Shown piece after piece: positions 7,202-20,840 of a stretch of 22,103 nucleotides of DNA (its first letter is position 1; the number at the start of each line of letters is the position of its first letter). Source of the DNA: a virus; the IMG/VR virus record IMGVR_UViG_3300020420_000065, positions 1 to 22,103 of that record; one strand, given 5' to 3'. Below the pieces are notes generated by a model, which had not been told where the DNA came from, did no database searches, and saw nothing but the letters and a program-made list of their open reading frames with translations. The position numbers and the translations under genes are program-made.

Positions 7202-7698
7202 TGACACTTTTAGAACATCTTAAAAATATCAATGCGAAATCTAAAGAGAAGATGAAGAAAGAACCTGGTCTTTGGATTGGTATGATTACAGAAGATTTAG
7301 AACATTGGAAGAATTATGGTATTACAACTCCTGCTCAACTTGACAGGTATTTCCTAGAAACAGATGTTTACGAAATGCACAAAAGTGCCTATGGCGTAAA
7401 AGGTAGACATTATGAATTTTCTAAAATGTCAGACGATGACCTTAAAAAAGAATTTGAACATTTATGTAAAGTGGCGCAGTACGAAATGGAACAAGAAGAG
7501 AAGGCAGAGAAAGAGGCCTACGACAACTTTGAAAAACAGATTAAGAAAAATCTTGAACTTGGCGCAAGTGATAGAGAGACAGCAATTAAATGGGTGTTAG
7601 ACGCCGAAGGTCTAACAGACGAGAAAGATACAGGTTATATTTGTTATAGTCTAGGTCTTTCATACGATAAAGAATATATTTTTAAAACTAAACACTAA
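7201..7698 (+). CDS. Conserved phage hypothetical protein (165 aa)
   Basis: A soluble, largely helical protein with a charged central coil (EMEQEEKAEKEAYDNFEKQIKK). Two segments look familiar from hypothetical proteins of T4-like and other large phages: YEMHKSAYGVKGRHYEF, and the C-terminal AIKWVLDAEGL...GYICYSLGL. The family has no function known to me. Its ATG is joined to the stop of the 24-residue membrane peptide, and the ribosome site GAGAAAGG lies within that peptide's coding region. It is co-transcribed with the following small genes from P3. Confidence 0.8.
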   Translation: MTLLEHLKNINAKSKEKMKKEPGLWIGMITEDLEHWKNYGITTPAQLDRYFLETDVYEMHKSAYGVKGRHYEFSKMSDDDLKKEFEHLCKVAQYEMEQEEKAEKEAYDNFEKQIKKNLELGASDRETAIKWVLDAEGLTDEKDTGYICYSLGLSYDKEYIFKTKH

Positions 7699-7711
7699 CA
7701 AAGGATACATT

Positions 7712-7966
7712 ATGATAATTAATATTGGTGATACAATCAGAGACGAAAAAGGTAGAGAAGGTGTTATTACAAACATCGGTATTGCTACTGACAAAAATGA
7801 CATTGCCGCCGAACAAGATACGGCCGCAAGTGTAAAGACTTACGATACAGATTTAGATTACACAGGTGCAATTACATTTGGCGACAACTGGTGCTATTTT
7901 ATGCAGATAAAAGAGGTCGTTAAAAAGAATGAATATATAGAAGATAAGAGTTGGATGAATGACTAG
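7712..7966 (+). CDS. Small beta-rich hypothetical protein (84 aa)
   Basis: Preceded by AAAGGA nine bases before the ATG. The N-terminus IGDTIRDEKGREGVITNIG has the strand-turn-strand pattern of KOW or SH3-like small barrels, where a GDxVRxxxGxxGxVxxI motif is common; this is a pattern resemblance only. The C-terminal half is acidic and mixed. No function is assigned. It overlaps the next gene by eight bases. Confidence 0.75.
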   Translation: MIINIGDTIRDEKGREGVITNIGIATDKNDIAAEQDTAASVKTYDTDLDYTGAITFGDNWCYFMQIKEVVKKNEYIEDKSWMND

Positions 7967-8207
7967 TTATGCAATGAATAAAATTGAGGCCAAGTCAACT
8001 TTAGATAAAGTTACTGGTAATGATGGTAGAATTAGACTATCAAGACAATTCAGAAGAGATAGTGTAGGACTTATAGAATTTGTATATGGTAGTGCAGTAG
8101 GTTGGTCTATCTTACCTATATGTGGTCCAAACGAAGAAGATGGTTCTTATGTATATAAACTTGCAAAAGATAAAGTAAAACTTGCTAGAGAGGTATTAAA
8201 GCAATGA
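7959..8207 (+). CDS. Hypothetical protein (82 aa)
   Basis: Begins inside the end of the preceding gene and overlaps the next by four bases (ATGA). An internal ATG at 7974 (MNKIEAKST) is an alternative start. The product is a small basic protein with a likely beta-rich middle (GLIEFVYGSAVGWSILPIC) and a basic C-terminal helix (YKLAKDKVKLAREVLKQ). No family is recognised. Tight coupling to 7712 and 8204 suggests a related role. Confidence 0.7.
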   Translation: MTSYAMNKIEAKSTLDKVTGNDGRIRLSRQFRRDSVGLIEFVYGSAVGWSILPICGPNEEDGSYVYKLAKDKVKLAREVLKQ

Positions 8208-8739: not shown

Positions 8740-8763
8740 GCGCCGTCCTACGGCGCCGTTTTT
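8740..8763 (+). terminator. GC-rich hairpin terminator
   Basis: Perfect stem GCGCCG (8740-8745) / CGGCGC (8751-8756), loop TCCTA, then TTTTT at 8759-8763. A second small hairpin GGG-CGAAAA-CCC (8764-8775) follows at once. The GC-rich block stands out in an otherwise AT-rich region and closes the transcription unit ahead of promoter P4. Confidence 0.85.
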
Positions 8764-8800: not shown

Positions 8801-8829
8801 TTGACAAGATTGTAGGTTTATGTTAATAT
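8801..8829 (+). promoter_or_regulatory. Sigma70-like promoter P4 (GCTTGACA type)
   Basis: TTGACA at 8801-8806 within AATGCTTGACA, 17-base spacer, -10 TAATAT at 8824-8829 (4/6, with T-12, A-11 and T-7 kept). A perfect TATAAT also occurs at 8833-8838 but is too far from this -35. Predicted +1 near 8836, upstream of GAGAGAGG and ATG 8859. It would drive the long unit starting at 8859. Confidence 0.7.
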
Positions 8830-8858: not shown

Positions 8859-9176
8859 ATGTCGTTTAGTTACACAAAAGAAATGGTCTTTGACGAGTTT
8901 AAACTTGCCACAAAGAAAGACCAAAAAGGCAAAAAAGAAAAATACACAAACAGAGTGCAGTTTCTAAAAGAAATGAAACAACTCAAAAAAGATAATCCAT
9001 CCGCAATGCGTGATGTATCTATTACTCAAAAGCAATTTGACAATCTAATAACTGCTTGGTCTTCACCAAGTCCTAGAGACGCTTTCTATATGAAAGTATT
9101 TGGTAGAACTTATGCAGAACAGAAATCTTTTGAGGCAAAGAAATATGGCAAAGACAAAGAAGAACTACTTAACTAA
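8859..9176 (+). CDS. Basic hypothetical protein (105 aa)
   Basis: First gene after promoter P4, with GAGAGAGG as ribosome site. The product is soluble and strongly basic in its first half (ATKKDQKGKKEKYTNR and KEMKQLKKDN), with the second half containing WSSPSPRDAFYMKVFGRTY. Lysine richness could mean nucleic-acid binding, but no domain is recognised. It overlaps the next gene by 32 bases. Confidence 0.75.
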   Translation: MSFSYTKEMVFDEFKLATKKDQKGKKEKYTNRVQFLKEMKQLKKDNPSAMRDVSITQKQFDNLITAWSSPSPRDAFYMKVFGRTYAEQKSFEAKKYGKDKEELLN

Positions 9177-9471
9177 AGAAATGCGATTACAGATAGTCAG
9201 AGAAAATCACAACAAGTGGTTGAAGTCTATCGGCGTGAATTTAGATAGTAATGGTAAAGTGATAAACAACTTTCAAGGTTATCCTTTTCCTGATTACTCT
9301 TCTAATAGAAAATCACTACCTTGTTCAAACAGGATAGTGTCAGGTGCAACGAAAAGAGAGGTTATCAAACCTAAACTGCCTGAAGGTAAAACAATCAGTA
9401 TTGCATACAACAAAGGTAATTATCAAGTTGTAGACATTGCTGATATTACAACAATGGGAAGGAAAGTATGA
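9145..9471 (+). CDS. Conserved phage hypothetical protein (108 aa)
   Basis: I choose ATG 9145 (MAKTKKNYLTKEM) because GAGG lies about nine bases upstream; an upstream GTG at 9100 and an internal ATG at 9181 (MRLQIVRENHNKW) are alternatives. The C-terminal segment LPEGKTISIAYNKGNYQVV resembles the ending of a widespread phage hypothetical family (PEG...AYNKGxYQV). No catalytic motif is visible and function is unknown. It overlaps the preceding gene by 32 bases and the next, exported, protein by four (ATGA). Confidence 0.75.
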   Translation: MAKTKKNYLTKEMRLQIVRENHNKWLKSIGVNLDSNGKVINNFQGYPFPDYSSNRKSLPCSNRIVSGATKREVIKPKLPEGKTISIAYNKGNYQVVDIADITTMGRKV

Positions 9472-9710
9472 ACAAAGTGCTTTTAGTATGTGCGATGGTG
9501 TTGTTTACGACTACAACTATTGCAGAAGAAAAATCAATTACACCACAAGAGTTTGGTAATGCAATCAAAGAGACGCCAGGCAAACTTGTAACATTTATTC
9601 AAGGTGAAGTTGATAAGACAAAAGAATATCAAAAAGAAAGTTGGGCAGATATGAAAGAACAAACTGCTCAGACTTGGGCAAAATTGAAATCATTGGTGGT
9701 AAAGAACTAA
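9468..9710 (+). CDS. Small Sec-exported periplasmic protein (80 aa)
   Basis: The N-terminus (MNKVLLVCAMVLFTTTTIAEE) is a clear Sec signal peptide: a basic residue, a hydrophobic core and a small-residue cleavage region (TIA before EE). The mature part of about 60 residues is a charged amphipathic helix (FGNAIKETPGKLVTFIQG, YQKESWADMKEQTAQTW) and probably lies in the periplasm. No family is recognised. It is coupled to the next ORF by TAATG and opens a run rich in exported products, so a role in the host envelope is the natural inference. Confidence 0.75.
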   Translation: MNKVLLVCAMVLFTTTTIAEEKSITPQEFGNAIKETPGKLVTFIQGEVDKTKEYQKESWADMKEQTAQTWAKLKSLVVKN

Positions 9711-9916
9711 TGGACTTTCAATTGACAAGTGCAAATGATGGTACATTTCTTATTAGGCCTGTGTCCGCAAGGGCAGAGGTCTGGTGGAAAGACAACAATA
9801 TGAATGAGAGATATGTTGTAGATAATACGGTCAATGACTTTAAAGTAATATTAACAGAAAACAATAAAAAGGTATGCGATGAGATTAGACAAAATAATTT
9901 CGATTTTACTAATTAG
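9710..9916 (+). CDS. Small soluble hypothetical protein (68 aa)
   Basis: ATG 9710 overlaps the previous stop (TAATG). The product has no signal peptide or membrane segment. It seems beta-rich (MDFQLTSANDGTFLIRP, ARAEVWWKDN, DFKVILTEN). It overlaps the following lipoprotein gene by 38 bases, an unusually long overlap that could couple translation. It is the one non-exported product inside the exported-protein run. Function unknown. Confidence 0.65.
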   Translation: MDFQLTSANDGTFLIRPVSARAEVWWKDNNMNERYVVDNTVNDFKVILTENNKKVCDEIRQNNFDFTN

Positions 9917-10436
9917 TATAACACTAGGTGCCTGTAGTACGGCACATAAATTTCCAGACGCTTCTGGTGGTGAACGAGTAGATGTTAACAATACATCTGG
10001 TTTCAAATTTAACAGAAGTCATTTAGGTGCAGGTCTAGGTGCTACGACAGGTGCGATGAGTTGTGTTGAAATGATAAGTGCAGACCCTTATGTGGCCGCT
10101 GGTTGTGCTGTGATTGGTGCCTTTGCAGGTGCAGAATTATTATATGATAGTGATTATGATTTACACCAGGCAGTATTTGTAGACCACTTAAACAATGGTC
10201 CAGGTAATGCAAGTTATACAAACTGGTTGAATAGTAAAACAGGTTCAAATGGAACGATTAAGATTAATAGAAGTTATGCTCAAGGTCCACTTATGTGTAA
10301 AGAGTATGAAAGTGCATTTAATATAAAATCAACTTGGCCTGTAATTGGTATCGCAGATACAGATGTAGACACTAGATTTGGTGTTGTATGTCAAATGCCT
10401 GATGGCAGATGGATTGAGAAAGGTCTAATAAAATAA
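9879..10436 (+). CDS. Predicted lipoprotein with glycine-rich hydrophobic segment (185 aa)
   Basis: The N-terminus ends in the lipobox LGAC (Cys at about 20) after a hydrophobic core (IISILLISITL), so signal peptidase II processing and lipidation are predicted. A Ser at +2 favours outer-membrane sorting by the E. coli rule. Residues about 52-85 are rich in small residues (LGAGLGATTGAMSC, AAGCAVIGAFAGAELL), recalling glycine-zipper segments of bacterial surface lipoproteins. Two more cysteines (LMCKEYESAF, GVVCQMPDG) could form a disulfide. Phage lipoproteins are often linked to superinfection exclusion or envelope change; here that is inference. The next gene starts after a one-base gap. Confidence 0.8.
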   Translation: MRLDKIISILLISITLGACSTAHKFPDASGGERVDVNNTSGFKFNRSHLGAGLGATTGAMSCVEMISADPYVAAGCAVIGAFAGAELLYDSDYDLHQAVFVDHLNNGPGNASYTNWLNSKTGSNGTIKINRSYAQGPLMCKEYESAFNIKSTWPVIGIADTDVDTRFGVVCQMPDGRWIEKGLIK

Positions 10437-10437
10437 T

Positions 10438-11007
10438 ATGAGAACTTTGAAAGATTATGTGTTGTTTATCTTATCACTAATAGTTGTGATTTGGATATCA
10501 ATGAATTGGGCAAAGGCAGATACTTGGGTAATGAATAAAGTAGAACCTTTAGATGGCGAAGTTATGCAGATTAAATCGGCACCTGTAACAGATGTATACA
10601 TAAATGATATACACGAAAAAGTGCAGAAGAAATTAAAACTTCTAAATGAGAATGAGAAAAAAGGTGTATTAAAAGAAACTACACTAGACAGATTTGAACG
10701 AGACGGTCAATGGTGCTTTGTTAAGATTGTCATACGACAACAAGGTGATGATATTATCAAAGAAGAGATTATGGAATGTGCAGATACCGAACACGGTAGA
10801 ACTGATAAAGAAAAGATAAAAGAATTGGAGAAGCAAATTGAACTTGAAAAGGCAAAGAAACCAGGATATTGGGAACTATTTGCCGCTTTTTATTATAAAG
10901 ATTTGAATGCTCCAGAATATTGTAGGTTGTATTCTCAACCTTCACACGCCTTTAAGTCCTTCGGAAGAGCGTGTTTAACCAATGAAGGACAATGGAAGAG
11001 AAGGTAA
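10438..11007 (+). CDS. Sec-exported Cys-containing protein with coiled coil (189 aa)
   Basis: A signal peptide or anchor is visible (YVLFILSLIVVIWISMNWAKAD), with AKA before Asp fitting signal peptidase I cleavage at about residue 27. The mature part has four cysteines (QWCFVK, MECADTEH, PEYCRLY, GRACLTN) that could form two periplasmic disulfides, and a charged coil (KEKIKELEKQIELEKAKK) in the middle. No family is recognised. It lies between two lipoprotein genes and shares the AKAD cleavage end with the exported protein at 15989. Confidence 0.75.
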   Translation: MRTLKDYVLFILSLIVVIWISMNWAKADTWVMNKVEPLDGEVMQIKSAPVTDVYINDIHEKVQKKLKLLNENEKKGVLKETTLDRFERDGQWCFVKIVIRQQGDDIIKEEIMECADTEHGRTDKEKIKELEKQIELEKAKKPGYWELFAAFYYKDLNAPEYCRLYSQPSHAFKSFGRACLTNEGQWKRR

Positions 11008-11008
11008 T

Positions 11009-11164
11009 ATGTTGAAAAACTTGATTATTCTTGGTCTTCTAATTATTATTATGACAGGTGCTACGGCTTCAGATGTGGTCGCCTATGTTGAGGACAACCA
11101 GCTTATTGACAAGTTTAGTGAAATGTTGTATAGTATAATTGGGAGTATAAAAGACAATGTATAA
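11009..11164 (+). CDS. Small Sec-exported or membrane peptide (51 aa)
   Basis: I start it at ATG 11009, which has AGAGAAGG upstream, rather than at 10982 inside the previous gene. The first 20 residues (MLKNLIILGLLIIIMTGATA) look like a signal peptide with cleavage near GATA-SD, leaving a mature peptide of about 30 residues (VEDNQLIDKFSEMLYSIIGS) that could form an amphipathic helix. It overlaps the next lipoprotein gene by eight bases. It may otherwise remain as a membrane peptide. Confidence 0.65.
   Translation: MLKNLIILGLLIIIMTGATASDVVAYVEDNQLIDKFSEMLYSIIGSIKDNV
11106..11134 (+). promoter_or_regulatory. Possible internal promoter before the LPP20-like gene
   Basis: Inside the 51-residue ORF, TTGACA (11106-11111) is followed after 17 bases by TATAGT (11129-11134). 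+1 would be near 11141, 16 bases before the lipoprotein ATG. It lacks the GC before TTGACA seen in the seven main promoters. The coding constraint may explain it, so confidence is limited. Confidence 0.35.
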
Positions 11165-11801
11165 TAATCTAATAAAAGTAGGTCTAATCGCTATTGTGGC
11201 GATAGGTCTAAATGCTTGTTCATCTAAAAACTATAAGATAAAACAAGAGACGGACAAGATAGTAAATGAAGTGCCTAAATGGTATATGGCAGACTTTGAT
11301 AAAAAGAATGCTTGTGATGTATCAATGTGGGCAAACAATGGTGTATGGAAGAACGAAGACGATGACAAGACTTGTATATTCGGTGTAGGTACTTCTGTAT
11401 CTCCTTCACTAGAACTTGCGATTGAGAAGGCAAAATTAATTGCAAAAGCAGAAATGGCAGATATTGTCGCTGGTGAAATGAATAAGAAAGCGAAAATCTT
11501 TGTAACAGAGATAGGTAAAACGAATGTTAAGACCGTGGTTACAGAGGTAGAAACTGCGATGGTGAATGTTATATCTAACACTCCAGTAAGAGGTTACGAA
11601 ATCTTTGCTCAAGAAGTAACTAGAACGAAAAAAGGTTACTATCGTGCTTGGATAGGTTTAAGATTGCCTCTTGGTGAGTTTAACAAGATGTATGATTACA
11701 CTATATCAGAAGTAGTAGACGCCTATAAGGTAAAACTAAAGGCCGCAGACGCTTTCAAAAGTGTTGAGGATACTGCAAATGGTAAAAAAGACGAACAATA
11801 A
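11157..11801 (+). CDS. LPP20-like predicted lipoprotein (214 aa)
   Basis: The signal peptide ends with the lipobox LNAC (Cys21) followed by SSK, predicting lipidation and outer-membrane sorting. The mature part looks like the LPP20 lipoprotein family: an early PKWY, then IFGVGTSVSPSLELAIEKAK and AKAEMADIVAGEMNKKAK (small-residue-rich helix), and later GYYRAWIGLRLP. LPP20-type proteins are bacterial surface or flagella-associated lipoproteins; I recall no function for phage versions. It is the last and largest of the exported run, and its end overlaps the glutaredoxin gene by 23 bases. Assignment to LPP20 is from pattern memory and needs a profile search. Confidence 0.75.
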   Translation: MYNNLIKVGLIAIVAIGLNACSSKNYKIKQETDKIVNEVPKWYMADFDKKNACDVSMWANNGVWKNEDDDKTCIFGVGTSVSPSLELAIEKAKLIAKAEMADIVAGEMNKKAKIFVTEIGKTNVKTVVTEVETAMVNVISNTPVRGYEIFAQEVTRTKKGYYRAWIGLRLPLGEFNKMYDYTISEVVDAYKVKLKAADAFKSVEDTANGKKDEQ

Positions 11802-12063
11802 TATAATCGTATATTCCAAGAACAATTGTGGATATTGCGATAAGGCAAAGGCCTTGTTAAAAGGCCTTGGTCTATCTTTCGAGACAAGAAGAATGGAAGA
11901 GTTTGAGAGTGTTGACGCTATGATAAAAGATATTGGTAGTAGAGTAAGGTCAATGCCTCAAATTAAAATTAATGGTGAATTGATTGGTGGTTATAATCAG
12001 TTAATAGAACATTACAACAAAGAAGGTAAAGTTGACTTTAAGGGTGCAATCATCAATGAGTGA
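11779..12063 (+). CDS. Glutaredoxin
   Basis: A 94-residue thioredoxin-fold disulfide reductase. The active site CGYC (Cys17/Cys20) follows the first strand NNIIVYSKNN, the cis-proline is in RSMPQIKI (Pro60), and GGYNQL (about 70-75) is the conserved glutathione-binding end. I take ATG 11779 over the upstream GTG 11761 because the family starts here. It can reduce the C-terminal CEAC pair of NrdA, so it plausibly recycles the phage ribonucleotide reductase, although about 7 kb separates them. It overlaps the lipoprotein gene upstream and the next gene downstream (ATGAGTGA). Confidence 0.93.
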   Translation: MVKKTNNNIIVYSKNNCGYCDKAKALLKGLGLSFETRRMEEFESVDAMIKDIGSRVRSMPQIKINGELIGGYNQLIEHYNKEGKVDFKGAIINE

Positions 12064-13177: not shown

Positions 13178-13475
13178 CATTTTTAAACTATCATCTAAAG
13201 GAGATGAAAATATGGCTAGAACTAAACTTAGCAAAACAGCAAAAGTGAGAAATCTTTTTGCAAAAGGTAATAGTGTAACTTGGAAACACCTAAGGAACAC
13301 ATTTGACCTTAAATCACCTGCCGCTATGGTGGGTAAATTGAGAAACGAAGGAATGATGATTTATGAAAATAGAACATCATCTGGTGTTTCATACAGAGTA
13401 GGTAATCCATCAAAGGCAATCATTGCCGCTGGTATTACTGCTGTATTCGGTAAACAAGTCGGATACTCTGCTTAA
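13170..13475 (+). CDS. Winged-helix-like small DNA-binding protein (101 or 87 aa)
   Basis: Two in-frame starts each have a strong ribosome site: ATG 13170 after AAAAGGAGG (13151-13159) and ATG 13212 after AAAGGAG (13197-13203). The shorter form starts MARTKLSKTAKVRNLFAKG, which matches from memory a family of small T4-like marine phage proteins, so 13212 may be the main start. The core (VTWKHLRNTFDLKSPAAMVG, LRNEGMMIYENRTSSG) has the helix-turn-helix plus beta-wing pattern of winged-helix proteins. It ends with a hydrophobic helix (AIIAAGITAVFGKQVG). Role is probably DNA binding or regulation; targets unknown. A very stable hairpin follows the stop. Confidence 0.75.
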   Translation: MFNIFKLSSKGDENMARTKLSKTAKVRNLFAKGNSVTWKHLRNTFDLKSPAAMVGKLRNEGMMIYENRTSSGVSYRVGNPSKAIIAAGITAVFGKQVGYSA

Positions 13476-14482: not shown

Positions 14483-15339
14483 TAATAGTTGATATGCACC
14501 AAGTGTTAATCAGTAACTTGATGGCACAAATGGCCAGAGTAACTTACAATGGTACTAAAAAAGGTGAGGCAAGTAAAGAAATGGTCAGACATATGGTCTG
14601 TAACTCTTTACGAGGTTATATCAGAAAGTTTGGTAATGAGTATGGCAAAGATTTAGTACTTGCTTGTGATAGTGCAAATCCTTGGCGTAGAGAATTTTTT
14701 CCACTATATAAAGCGAGTAGAAGACAAGGAAGAGAGGAGTCCACAAATGATTGGGATGTATTATTTAATCTTATATGGGAAATCAAGGAAGAGATATCTG
14801 AAAATTTTCCGTATAAAGTAATCGCTGTTGACAATGCAGAGGCAGACGATATAATTGCAACAATAATTAAGTTGCAGAAAGAAGACAAGTATCTTATTAT
14901 ATCAGGCGATAAAGACTTCAAACAATTACAGAGGTATAGTAATGTAAGTCAATATAGTCCGATACAAAAGGTTATGATTGTAGAAGACAACCCTAGTAGA
15001 TACTTACACGAGCAGATTATAAAAGGTGATAGAAGCGATGGTATTCCGAACATATTATCACCTGATGATGTCTTTATGACAAAGACAAAACAGAGTCCTA
15101 TAACGAAGAAAAAGTTAGAAGAATGGTCTCAAATTGACGATATTCCTTTGGGTAGTGAGACAAAGAAATATTACAATCGGAATAAGAAGTTAATAGACTT
15201 AACTTTAATACCAAACTCACTAGAAGAAACTATTATAAATAGTTACACGAATTACGAAGTGCCTAGTAGGTCCAAACTATTACCGTACTTCATAAATTTT
15301 AAACTTAAATCATTGATTGAAAATATAAATGATTTTTAA
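14479..15339 (+). CDS. rnh: T4 RNase H-like 5' nuclease (FEN family)
   Basis: Removes RNA primers and flaps with 5'-3' polarity during lagging-strand synthesis. The 286-residue protein (T4 RNase H has 305) has the FEN-family acids in order: Asp5 (MIIVDMHQVL), Asp64 (LACDSANPW) followed by the RREFFPLYKASRR substrate-binding helix start, EADD at 121-124, and SGDKDF with Asp144/Asp146. The helix-3-turn-helix signature GDRSDGIPNI is at about 183-192. The C-terminal domain is less conserved, as expected. It is ATGA-coupled to a 27-residue membrane peptide. No phage DNA polymerase lies nearby, but the primase at 465 works on the same Okazaki fragments. Confidence 0.95.
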   Translation: MIIVDMHQVLISNLMAQMARVTYNGTKKGEASKEMVRHMVCNSLRGYIRKFGNEYGKDLVLACDSANPWRREFFPLYKASRRQGREESTNDWDVLFNLIWEIKEEISENFPYKVIAVDNAEADDIIATIIKLQKEDKYLIISGDKDFKQLQRYSNVSQYSPIQKVMIVEDNPSRYLHEQIIKGDRSDGIPNILSPDDVFMTKTKQSPITKKKLEEWSQIDDIPLGSETKKYYNRNKKLIDLTLIPNSLEETIINSYTNYEVPSRSKLLPYFINFKLKSLIENINDF

Positions 15340-15351
15340 TATTGCAATATT
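15324..15351 (+). promoter_or_regulatory. TATAAATG late-promoter-like box plus 14-bp perfect palindrome
   Basis: TATAAATG (15324-15331) is one base from the T4 late promoter box TATAAATA. A perfect palindrome AATATTGCAATATT follows at 15338-15351, overlapping the RNase H stop and ending just before TGAGGAAATATAATG, the ribosome site and start of the next gene. As DNA it could be a dimeric operator. If the late box is used, +1 would fall near the palindrome. Confidence 0.35.
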
Positions 15352-15362
15352 GAGGAAATATA

Positions 15363-15878
15363 ATGGCTGAACAAAACACAAATCCAAATTTGGCAAATCC
15401 TGCCTTAATGGCAAGTGCCAAAACTTCATCAGCAATGGTGTTGACTTTCCACGAAATATTAACTAAAGTAAACAACGCTAAAGATAAGGCGAAGAAAGTA
15501 GAAGTATTGAGACAATACGATAGTCCTGCTTTCAGACAGATATTAAAGGGTGCTTTTGACCCTAATATCTTATGGGACTTACCAAAAGGTCCGCCACCGT
15601 ATATTCAAAACGAGGCACCTTTAGGTACTGAACATACCTATCTTGACCAAGAAGCGAAGAGACTTTGGCATTTCGTAAAAGGTGCAGATATGAACCTATC
15701 AAAAGTCAAGAAAGAAACACTATTCATACAGATGTTAGAAGGTCTCCATCCTACAGAGGCAACATTACTATTAAATGTTGTTGCAAAGAAACTGAATAAC
15801 CAATATAAAGGTTTGACGGCTGCTGTAGTAAAAGAGGCATTTAACTGGAATGATGAATTTGTCAAAATTGAGACATAA
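15363..15878 (+). CDS. Conserved soluble T4-like phage protein (171 aa)
   Basis: GAGGAAA lies upstream of the ATG. The protein has an Asn/Ala-rich N-terminus (NPNLANPALMASAKTSS), then a helical middle (FHEILTKVNNAKDKAKKVEV), a Pro-rich turn (DLPKGPPPYIQNEAPLG) and a helical C-terminal domain (LFIQMLEGLHPTEATLLLNV). From memory this resembles a conserved T4-like cyanophage family listed as a domain of unknown function (possibly DUF6433). The function is unknown. It is flanked by a regulatory palindrome upstream and a clear terminator downstream, so it may be a single-gene unit expressed separately. Confidence 0.8.
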   Translation: MAEQNTNPNLANPALMASAKTSSAMVLTFHEILTKVNNAKDKAKKVEVLRQYDSPAFRQILKGAFDPNILWDLPKGPPPYIQNEAPLGTEHTYLDQEAKRLWHFVKGADMNLSKVKKETLFIQMLEGLHPTEATLLLNVVAKKLNNQYKGLTAAVVKEAFNWNDEFVKIET

Positions 15879-15894
15879 AAAACAACGGTTTTAC

Positions 15895-15925
15895 GAGGTT
15901 TTTACCCTAAAAAAACCTCATTTTT
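15895..15925 (+). terminator. Hairpin terminator after 15363-15878
   Basis: Stem GAGGTTTTT (15895-15903) / AAAAACCTC (15911-15919), nine pairs, loop ACCCTAA, followed by A and TTTTT (15921-15925). A typical intrinsic terminator; promoter P5 follows within four bases. Confidence 0.9.
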
Positions 15926-15928
15926 CGC

Positions 15929-15957
15929 TTGACATTAGTACCCGAATTTGATAGAAT
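15929..15957 (+). promoter_or_regulatory. Sigma70-like promoter P5 (GCTTGACA type)
   Basis: TTGACA at 15929-15934 within TCGCTTGACA, 17-base spacer, -10 TAGAAT at 15952-15957 (5/6). Predicted +1 near 15964, with GAAAGAGAGG upstream of ATG 15989. It would drive the envelope-related block from 15989 onward. Confidence 0.85.
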
Positions 15958-15988
15958 AAATACATAATGAAAGAGAGGTCTATATATT

Positions 15989-16309
15989 ATGCTTAAAGTG
16001 ATAAAAACCTTTGTGGGTATATGTGTTTTCATATGGTTAGTTGGTGTAGGATTACACTTGACTATGCAATATGCAAAAGCAGACGATAGGTCAGTAGCGA
16101 CTGGCGCCCATATAATTAAAGAGACAATAAACGGAAATATCGACCATCAACAAGTACTATCTTCTGAATTGAAGATGTTAGTACATAAGATGGCTATTGA
16201 TATGACTTTTACTTTAGAAAAGCATTTACCTGCTATATTAGAAGGTCTTGCTACTGAAATAAGAGTTAATGGTATTGATAAGGCATATAAAGAAAGTTTA
16301 ACCGAGTAA
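15989..16309 (+). CDS. Sec-exported or membrane-anchored protein (106 aa)
   Basis: First gene of the P5 unit. The N-terminus is a signal peptide (TFVGICVFIWLVGVGLHLTM) ending in YAKADDR, a typical signal peptidase I site (AKA before Asp) and very like the WAKAD end of the protein at 10438. The mature part is helical with a conserved-looking core (LKMLVHKMAIDMTFTLEKHL, AILEGLATEIRVNG). It probably lies in the periplasm, next to genes for a membrane peptide, a protease and a glucosaminidase. No family is recognised; a role in lysis or envelope change is inference. Confidence 0.75.
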   Translation: MLKVIKTFVGICVFIWLVGVGLHLTMQYAKADDRSVATGAHIIKETINGNIDHQQVLSSELKMLVHKMAIDMTFTLEKHLPAILEGLATEIRVNGIDKAYKESLTE

Positions 16310-16318
16310 AGGAGGTCT

Positions 16319-16465
16319 ATGTACGACTTTGTAGAGGCGGTGAACGATTTTTTACAATTATTGTATTCTATCGCACCGAAAGAAATATGGATAATTGTCT
16401 TTGCCTGTATTGTTATGTACATCCAATTAGAGTATACTGACTGGAAGAACAAGAAACAAAAATAG
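16319..16465 (+). CDS. Small single-span membrane protein (48 aa)
   Basis: A strong ribosome site AAAGGAGG ends five bases before the ATG. An N-terminal amphipathic helix (MYDFVEAVNDFLQLLYSIAP) is followed by one membrane span (EIWIIVFACIVMYIQLEY) and a basic tail (WKNKKQK). The size, single span and charged tail, next to a peptidoglycan-hydrolase gene, are compatible with a small holin or spanin-like component, but the primary sequence gives no proof. Confidence 0.65.
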   Translation: MYDFVEAVNDFLQLLYSIAPKEIWIIVFACIVMYIQLEYTDWKNKKQK

Positions 16466-16477
16466 AGAGAGAGACAA

Positions 16478-16903
16478 ATGCCGAAGACAAAAAAACCTAA
16501 ATCTGTTAGGTATGCAACGCTTAAAAAGCGTGTGAAGTCCGAATATGAGCATACTAGACAATATAAAACTACTTACAAAGATATCAAGAAAATATTTAAT
16601 TGGATAAACGAGGCAGTATTTGACGGCAAACTTGCACCGTTTAACGATGTCATAATCAAAGACTTAAAACCACAAAAGTGTTATGGCCAAGTATGTCAAT
16701 GGGAGTGGAAGAGAAAAGGTACAAGTGTATTTCATTTAGAAATGTGTGAGAAATACAAAAACAAAAAAGAATTTATTGATACATTGGCACACGAAATGGT
16801 CCATCTGTATCAAATGAGAAATGCTGGTGATAGTGGTAATCACAATAAATTGTTCTATTCATTTAAACCGATAATGAGAAGAGCAGGCATTGATATGATT
16901 TAA
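16478..16903 (+). CDS. SprT-like zinc metalloprotease
   Basis: The 141-residue protein has the metal-binding motif HEMVH (His105, Glu106, His109) in LAHEMVHLYQ, with a likely third ligand at His122 (GNHNKLFYSF), the SprT/Spartan-type arrangement HExxH...H. The N-terminal helix (IKKIFNWINEAVFDGKL) and the FNDVIIKDL strand also fit the SprT-like fold. Spartan relatives cut proteins crosslinked to DNA; bacterial and phage SprT functions are less clear. The C-terminal zinc ribbon of full SprT is absent, so this is the protease domain only. GAGAGAGA precedes the ATG. It is co-transcribed with the glucosaminidase gene. Confidence 0.9.
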   Translation: MPKTKKPKSVRYATLKKRVKSEYEHTRQYKTTYKDIKKIFNWINEAVFDGKLAPFNDVIIKDLKPQKCYGQVCQWEWKRKGTSVFHLEMCEKYKNKKEFIDTLAHEMVHLYQMRNAGDSGNHNKLFYSFKPIMRRAGIDMI

Positions 16904-20323: not shown

Positions 20324-20616
20324 TGCCAACATATTCATTTTTAAATACCAAAACAGGCAAAGAGTTTACTGAACTTATGGGTATTTCAGAGAAAGAGAAA
20401 TACCTTAAAAAGAATAAGCACATTAAACAACAAATTACTACTATAAATATTATAAGTGGTACAGGTGGTATAAAGAATGATGGTGGGTGGAAAGAAGTCC
20501 AATCTAAAATAGCAGAAAGAAATCCTGGTACACCATTTGCAGATAGACACGGAAGAGCGTCTACAAAAGAAATTAAAACAAGACAAGTATTAAAAAAACA
20601 CAAAATTTTAAAATGA
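20323..20616 (+). CDS. Degenerate FmdB-like protein (97 aa)
   Basis: The start MPTYSFLNTKTGKEFTELMG is the opening strand pair of FmdB-type zinc-ribbon proteins, but the CxxC pairs that should follow are missing: the protein has no cysteine. It then has KKNKHIKQQITTINIISG, a Gly-rich linker and a basic tail (ASTKEIKTRQVLKKHKILK). Similar cysteine-less versions are, from memory, found in T4-like cyanophages. It is TAATG-coupled to the Dps-like gene and ATGA-coupled to the next lipoprotein gene. Function unknown. Confidence 0.75.
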   Translation: MPTYSFLNTKTGKEFTELMGISEKEKYLKKNKHIKQQITTINIISGTGGIKNDGGWKEVQSKIAERNPGTPFADRHGRASTKEIKTRQVLKKHKILK

Positions 20617-20840
20617 GAATACTATTAATATTAATTTTGCTATTTACTACTGGCTGTAGTGCTAGTTTTACGAACCTATTTTCTGTGGGTAGTATTGGTA
20701 CAGCAGTTGCAAGTAAGAACTCTTATAGTATTGCTTACAATGTAGTTGATATTGGAGTGCAAGTAGAAACAGGAAACTCTATCAAAGGTCACGCTTATGA
20801 TAGTTTTATAAAACAAGACGAGGAGTACGAAGATGAGTAA
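20613..20840 (+). CDS. Small predicted lipoprotein (75 aa)
   Basis: The signal peptide MRILLILILLFTTGC ends in a lipobox (TTGC, Cys15) with Ser at +2, which predicts lipidation and likely outer-membrane sorting. The mature part of 61 residues begins with SASFTNLFSVGSIGTAVASK and ends in an acidic tail (FIKQDEEYEDE). It is similar in length to small phage lipoproteins such as the outer spanin, but it lacks their Pro-rich region and no inner spanin is recognisable nearby. It overlaps both neighbours by a few bases. Confidence 0.75.
   Translation: MRILLILILLFTTGCSASFTNLFSVGSIGTAVASKNSYSIAYNVVDIGVQVETGNSIKGHAYDSFIKQDEEYEDE

Follow-up and report, generated by a model that had tools for sequence, protein, structure and literature searches.

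Introduction

Phage T5 encodes an outer-membrane lipoprotein, Llp, which acts on the periplasmic side of FhuA to block superinfection (PMC9586334) and which, in the passage of the same paper that cites Decker 1994, is described as expressed early. Another kind of envelope locus is found in the pelagimyophages, which carry a published exported curli (type VIII secretion system) cluster (PMC7029224, PMC9599517) that is absent in fonsimyophages (PMC7029224). Here we describe a further locus, situated elsewhere in the pelagimyophage genome: a cassette of genes for exported proteins at positions 9468–11801 of the IMG/VR virus record IMGVR_UViG_3300020420_000065, the whole of which (22,103 bases) was analysed and is referred to as the window. 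Exclusion lipoproteins and the curli cluster were already known; what is new is this conserved multi-gene cassette, a core pelagimyophage set that, as we infer, conditions the host envelope.

Members of the SAR11 clade, the hosts of pelagimyophages, are among the most abundant marine bacteria. Work on the envelope genes of these phages has centred on curli, and the cassette appears nearer to universal, its genes being mostly annotated 'hypothetical protein'. We found no description of it in searches of an open-access library. If a role in early exclusion or envelope conditioning is true, it would help to explain how infected cells cope with phage competitors where viral communities are dense; two cultured phages, Mosig and HTVC008M, carry the cassette, which makes it testable.

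Export signals and packing of the genes

The window aligned by gene order and similarity with the T4-like Pelagibacter phages Mosig EXVC030M and HTVC008M, with which it has in common the genes for primase, the ribonucleotide reductase subunits, glutaredoxin and a DUF6433 protein; judged from its sequence, it represents part of the genome of a T4-like pelagimyophage, a phage of SAR11-type hosts. Six open reading frames (ORFs) were confirmed at 9468–11801, and neighbours overlap or leave 1-nucleotide (nt) gaps. They are listed here with the adjoining glutaredoxin gene, lengths being in amino acids (aa).

9468..9710, + strand: 80-aa exported protein, probably an amphipathic helix, with the motif YQKxSWAxxKxQxAxNWxxIKS
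9710..9916, + strand: 68-aa protein, export signal absent
9879..10436, + strand: 185-aa lipoprotein, lipobox C19, with a glycine-zipper-like hairpin (G50xxxG54, C76xxxG80xxxG84) and a 17-kDa surface antigen-type C-terminal domain
10438..11007, + strand: 189-aa exported protein, AxA-like signal end in most homologues, invariant Cys 93, 114, 162 and 179
11009..11164, + strand: 51-aa small membrane peptide, 8-nt overlap with 11157
11157..11801, + strand: 214-aa lipoprotein, likely LPP20-like, lipobox C21, the best-conserved cassette member
11779..12063, + strand: glutaredoxin (PF00462, E 1e-13), cytoplasmic, a conserved neighbour that overlaps the 3' end of 11157

Export was called with a home-made scan for a hydrophobic core close to the N-terminus and for a lipobox. 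An N-terminal export signal was scored in five of the six ORFs, with lipoboxes in 9879 and 11157 and Sec-type N-termini in 9468, 10438 and 11009. An earlier note, made from the window's sequence, had described these ORFs as overlapping or nearly touching, with export signals on four of the five larger products, two lipoproteins among them and 9710 as the only gene without a signal, and had asked for a signal prediction; the scan upheld the signals, and the description is literally correct. The lipobox Cys was invariant in all aligned homologues (17/17 for the 9879 family and 21/21 for the 11157 family, the alignments on which our lipobox and Cys counts are based), position −3 of both lipoboxes was Leu, Val or Ile, and position +2 was Ser, Ala, Gly, Thr or Gln. 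Since Asp was never found at +2, sorting of both lipoproteins to the outer membrane fits these data.

With 12 of the 43 window genes scored as exported, five out of six in the cassette stretch corresponds to P ~0.004, a post hoc value, and no run of exported genes in the complete Mosig genome is denser than the homologous stretch, which ties for first place (5/7, shuffle P 0.032). Conservation is a stronger argument for the cassette than these chance statistics.

Conservation of the cassette in related phages

The core cassette consists of the 17-kDa-like lipoprotein 9879, the four-Cys exported protein 10438, the small peptide 11009 and the LPP20-like lipoprotein 11157, followed by glutaredoxin. 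It corresponds to genes 171, 169, 168, 167 and 166 of Mosig and to gp173, 176, 177, 178 and 179 of HTVC008M. We examined 114 distinct related loci selected via cassette members, all of which contain the three larger genes. In at least 105 of them the order was 17-kDa-type gene, zero to four small ORFs, 10438, 11009 and LPP20-like gene, the inserted ORFs being mostly short, often coiled-coil-like and without signals. In these loci, lipoprotein calls by the scan numbered 112/113 for the LPP20-like protein and 95/109 for the 17-kDa-type protein, and export was scored for the small peptide in 113/113 and for the 10438 homologue in 101/114.

A second set of loci was gathered by the DUF6433 gene (15363–15878) alone, that is, without selecting for the cassette, and comprised the best 80 matches (~59% identity or more); this gene served as anchor because the gene 3' of glutaredoxin was too variable for searching. 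The order 17-kDa-type gene, 10438, LPP20-like gene was kept in all 28 of these loci with at least 4.5 kb upstream, and the LPP20-like gene was present in 40 of the 41 with at least 3 kb upstream, the exception having only 3.3 kb.

Beyond close relatives, the cassette genes remain together down to ~35–40% identity, and a contig from a gammaproteobacterium single-cell genome holds a diverged cassette in unchanged order. Among 50,697 phage records searched by tblastn, the three larger window proteins matched solely Mosig and HTVC008M. A diverged LPP20-like lipoprotein was also found in the OM43 phage Melnitz (profile E 3e-24); upstream of its gene lie those for two predicted lipoproteins and a 45-aa membrane peptide, and downstream that for a cell-wall hydrolase. 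The Melnitz genes gp73–gp77 (14681–16742) form a diverged version of the cassette in one run, ending with this hydrolase.

Not every gene of the stretch belongs to the conserved set. A 9710 homologue lay close to the cassette in just 34/82 loci, at times elsewhere in the order, and 9710 is not a fixed cassette member; 9468 evolves rapidly and is mostly found directly upstream of the core. In cyanophage ACG-2014d the glutaredoxin and DUF6433 genes are close together and the cassette is absent at the syntenic glutaredoxin locus; glutaredoxin, occurring there without the cassette, looks like an old neighbour common to pelagimyophages and cyanophages. The set therefore stays together in related phages, scattering among close relatives not being seen, and the idea of an envelope operon gains from export signals, operon-like packing and co-conservation, less the variable 9710 and the glutaredoxin.

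Families of the cassette proteins

In a profile–profile comparison (hhalign), the 9879 family aligned with bacterial PF16998 proteins over 86 columns (98%, E 2.7e-13). The phage proteins have the homologous C-terminal domain, with its conserved W, two Cys (C140 and C171, kept in 17/17 homologues) and DG.W end, behind a lipobox of the PF16998 type. In Pfam searches 9879 scored below the curated cut-off for PF16998 (18.1 versus 26.6 bits), the best E-value among family members being 0.00023. We treat 9879 as an outlying relative of the 17-kDa surface antigens, a family that includes Rickettsia-type and many Pseudomonadota lipoproteins. It resembles that family in the lipobox, the glycine-rich hairpin and the C-terminal pattern W-N..TG..G...C.(E/D)Y...G..C..PDG.W, and differs from it in falling under the Pfam cut-off, in being phage-borne, in an added FVDHL motif and in belonging to a multi-gene cassette. 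The HTVC008M homologue, gp173, carries the annotation 'surface antigen protein' and is without the zipper hairpin; in the 16 homologues that have the glycine-zipper-like segment, GxxxG and CxxxGxxxG are kept in 15–16. The phage segment matched none of the Pfam zipper models, PF05433 included, and a Bacteriocin_IIc match to the glycine-rich part (E 0.002) was dismissed as chance or low complexity. Melnitz gp58 (8875–9285), annotated hypothetical and located away from the LPP20-like run, encodes an exported glycine-zipper protein (PF05433, E 0.00035).

The evidence for 11157 was of a weaker kind. Three divergent homologues matched the same region of the LPP20 model PF02169, all below threshold (E 0.00097, 0.0044 and 0.12), and the window protein itself had no PF02169 match in the Pfam search. 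A fold search gave HP1454, Lpp20 and FlgT as top matches (Z 6.1, 5.7 and 5.5) from a poor AlphaFold model (predicted local distance difference test, pLDDT, 46), and in a profile comparison with three bacterial LPP20 proteins, using a thin alignment, only the signal peptides aligned. The sub-threshold and fold matches make 'LPP20-like' a likely, not a certain, name for 11157. With the LPP20 lipoproteins (H. pylori Lpp20, HP1454, the FlgT domain) it appears to share lipidation and a core of beta-alpha-beta-beta type, besides the one common Pfam region matched by its divergent homologues; it differs in the sub-threshold scores, a longer C-terminal helix and the lack of a flagellar or host-adhesion context.

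No named family was found for 10438, 9468 or 11009. The four Cys of 10438 are invariant across homologues, and its C-terminal 30 residues look like the tail of the 17-kDa domain (CR...G..C...G.W), with a weak match to PF16998 proteins (76%) that suggests, but does not prove, a common ancestry. A fold search with 10438 returned nothing usable, and a Cas8f match in PADLOC (E 0.015) was dismissed as chance. That 11009 encodes a real protein is supported by a ratio of non-synonymous to synonymous substitution rates (dN/dS) of ~0.24 between close relatives. T4 Spackle (Sp, PF25676) resembles 9468 in being a small periplasmic protein of a T4-like phage; it was ruled out by hhalign (2.1% probability), having been matched at E 0.01 by one of 17 members of the 9468 family and by none in five phage records. 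Structure predictions were poor for both cassette proteins tried (pLDDT 45.7 and 64.5), so that fold results are supportive only, and sequence searches of solved structures with the cassette families gave no relative.

Set against the earlier note, which had reported four Cys in 10438, called 11157 an LPP20-like lipoprotein and proposed profile searches for each product, the four Cys and the lipoprotein assignment of 11157 hold, the LPP20 part is less secure, and the searches placed 9879 near PF16998, leaving 10438, 9468 and 11009 outside named families.

Promoters and predicted timing of expression

A consensus scan located three candidate transcription signals.

8740..8756, + strand: terminator-like hairpin, 7-bp stem (6 G-C pairs) followed by a T-run
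8801..8829, + strand: sigma70-type promoter TTGACA-17-TAATAT before gene 8859, putative start of the transcription unit
11106..11134, + strand: internal sigma70-type promoter TTGACA-17-TATAGT within gene 11009, 51 nt ahead of 11157

The hairpin may close the upstream transcription unit, and in most relatives a promoter like that at 8801..8829 sits ~55–70 nt ahead of the gene 8859 homologue. The internal promoter kept 11–12 of 12 consensus positions in 38/41 distinct sequences; it is weaker in Mosig (10/12), and in HTVC008M, Melnitz and the gammaproteobacterial contig it is either missing or beyond recognition. In close relatives only 1/12 of its columns varied, against 70/141 elsewhere, suggesting that the DNA is constrained beyond the protein.

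The T4-type late motif TATAAATA was not found in the cassette, and it occurs ahead of many structural genes and csgF in HTVC008M and Mosig. Strong sigma70-type sites in HTVC008M precede the genes for DNA polymerase, primase and the late sigma factor. Because sigma70-type promoters are conserved and the late motif does not occur in the cassette, its expression early in infection is likely. Some lysis genes of this phage group, such as that for the Melnitz endolysin, are likewise under early promoters (PMC9004378).

Proposed function and alternatives

As the main purpose of the cassette we tentatively favour superinfection exclusion through early remodelling of the envelope, giving it somewhat less than an even chance. 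It is preferred because early phage outer-membrane lipoproteins of known role (T5 Llp) act in this manner, and it draws support from the localisation signals, the fixed linkage, the presence in 28/28 loci, the promoters and the links to bacterial envelope lipoprotein families. Host sigma70 polymerase would transcribe the cassette soon after infection; the outer membrane would receive the 17-kDa-type and LPP20-like lipoproteins on its inner face, the periplasm the four-Cys protein, folded with disulfides, and the inner membrane the small peptide. By remodelling the outer membrane, or the beta-barrel proteins in it, they would jointly hamper adsorption or injection by competing phages, an outcome akin to that of T5 Llp or T4 Sp/Imm, from unrelated parts. 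The cassette is like T5 Llp and Cor in providing early (here by promoter) phage-encoded outer-membrane lipoproteins, but these are single small proteins, whereas the cassette encodes several larger, sequence-unrelated ones (lipoproteins of 185 and 214 aa). More doubtful is the specific form in which the glycine-zipper 17-kDa-type and LPP20-like lipoproteins, the disulfide-rich periplasmic protein and the inner-membrane peptide would make up a previously undescribed early exclusion complex that spans the envelope and locks outer-membrane proteins against other phages.

Several points weigh against exclusion. The exclusion lipoproteins known to us each consist of one small protein, and no PADLOC model gave a credible match to the cassette. 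The LPP20-like protein has a dN/dS of ~0.09 (7 pairs) and 58% identity to its Mosig homologue, near that of primase (61%), a strong conservation unlike that of a rapidly diversifying exclusion factor. Finally, the hydrolase 3' of the LPP20-like gene in Melnitz suits a role in lysis equally well.

Strong purifying selection would suit a housekeeping role, in which the 17-kDa-type and LPP20-like proteins help the thin envelope of a streamlined host to last through a long infection by strengthening or repairing it. SlyB, according to work cited in a passage of PMC13082787, brings outer-membrane proteins together in lipid nanodomains under stress; the layout of 9879 (lipobox, glycine-zipper-like hairpin, 17-kDa C-terminal domain) is that of two bacterial 17-kDa antigens, and the zipper of one of these aligns weakly with SlyB (7ojf). 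However, the phage zipper scores below the Pfam zipper models and is missing in HTVC008M, and no homologue of the four-Cys protein or the small peptide is known in such systems. We regard stabilisation of the outer membrane as unlikely. A function in lysis or its timing, with the inner-membrane peptide and outer-membrane lipoprotein joining the membranes as an atypical spanin-like or lysis-inhibition pair, appears rather improbable. The small membrane gene overlapping a lipoprotein gene recalls nested spanin genes, the peptide and LPP20-like pair precedes the cell-wall hydrolase in Melnitz, and early promoters are compatible with lysis, the Melnitz endolysin also being under one (PMC9004378); yet neither Pfam nor PHROG gave a convincing spanin match (Rz-like PHROG, E 0.14, residues 4–52 only), the sizes are reversed relative to Rz/Rz1, the late motif is not in the cassette, and peptidoglycan hydrolases lie 5–10 kb off. 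Altered outer-membrane permeability, bringing nutrients to the infected cell, is highly improbable: pelagimyophages carry many metabolic genes, and uptake has been proposed for their curli pore (PMC7029224), but no barrel, pore or substrate-binding domain was found in any cassette protein.

Comparison with the curli cluster

The curli cluster is like the cassette in that it belongs to the same phage group and consists of envelope-targeted genes. It is unlike the cassette in its locus (HTVC008M gp14–16) and in the late promoter motif ahead of csgF; HTVC008M csgF and csgG lie at 7.5–8.9 kb and the cassette at 135.8–137.5 kb. No cassette protein had a Pfam match to CsgG or CsgF, and membership of the cassette in the curli system was ruled out, the locus being separate and no protein family shared. 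In HTVC008M, TATAAATA occurs within 60 nt of csgF (7562–8038), and the curli cluster may be late-expressed, unlike the cassette. The earlier note had held it rare for tailed phages to give over an operon to envelope proteins, which needs qualifying, since pelagimyophages carry this published cluster. Its suggestions of envelope remodelling and blocked superinfection stay hypotheses, and its proposal of an undescribed envelope system is partly borne out by the export signals, packing and conservation and by the lack of a published description in our search, although phage envelope operons as such are known from curli.

Other observations

Pelagimyophage-like contigs were binned in metagenome-assembled genomes labelled Porticoccaceae and Planctomycetota, and are probably mis-binned phage DNA. 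Elsewhere in the window, a gene at 20613–20840, which lies two genes before that for an M15 peptidase (21221), encodes a predicted lipoprotein of 75 aa that is a possible outer-membrane spanin; no homologue was found in Mosig or HTVC008M. A small basic protein (13212–13475) has 82% identity to its Mosig counterpart and 47% to the HTVC008M copy, which is at another genome position. An exported helical protein of 106 aa (15989–16309), whose gene has a sigma70-like promoter to itself, is kept in both Mosig and HTVC008M, at differing positions.

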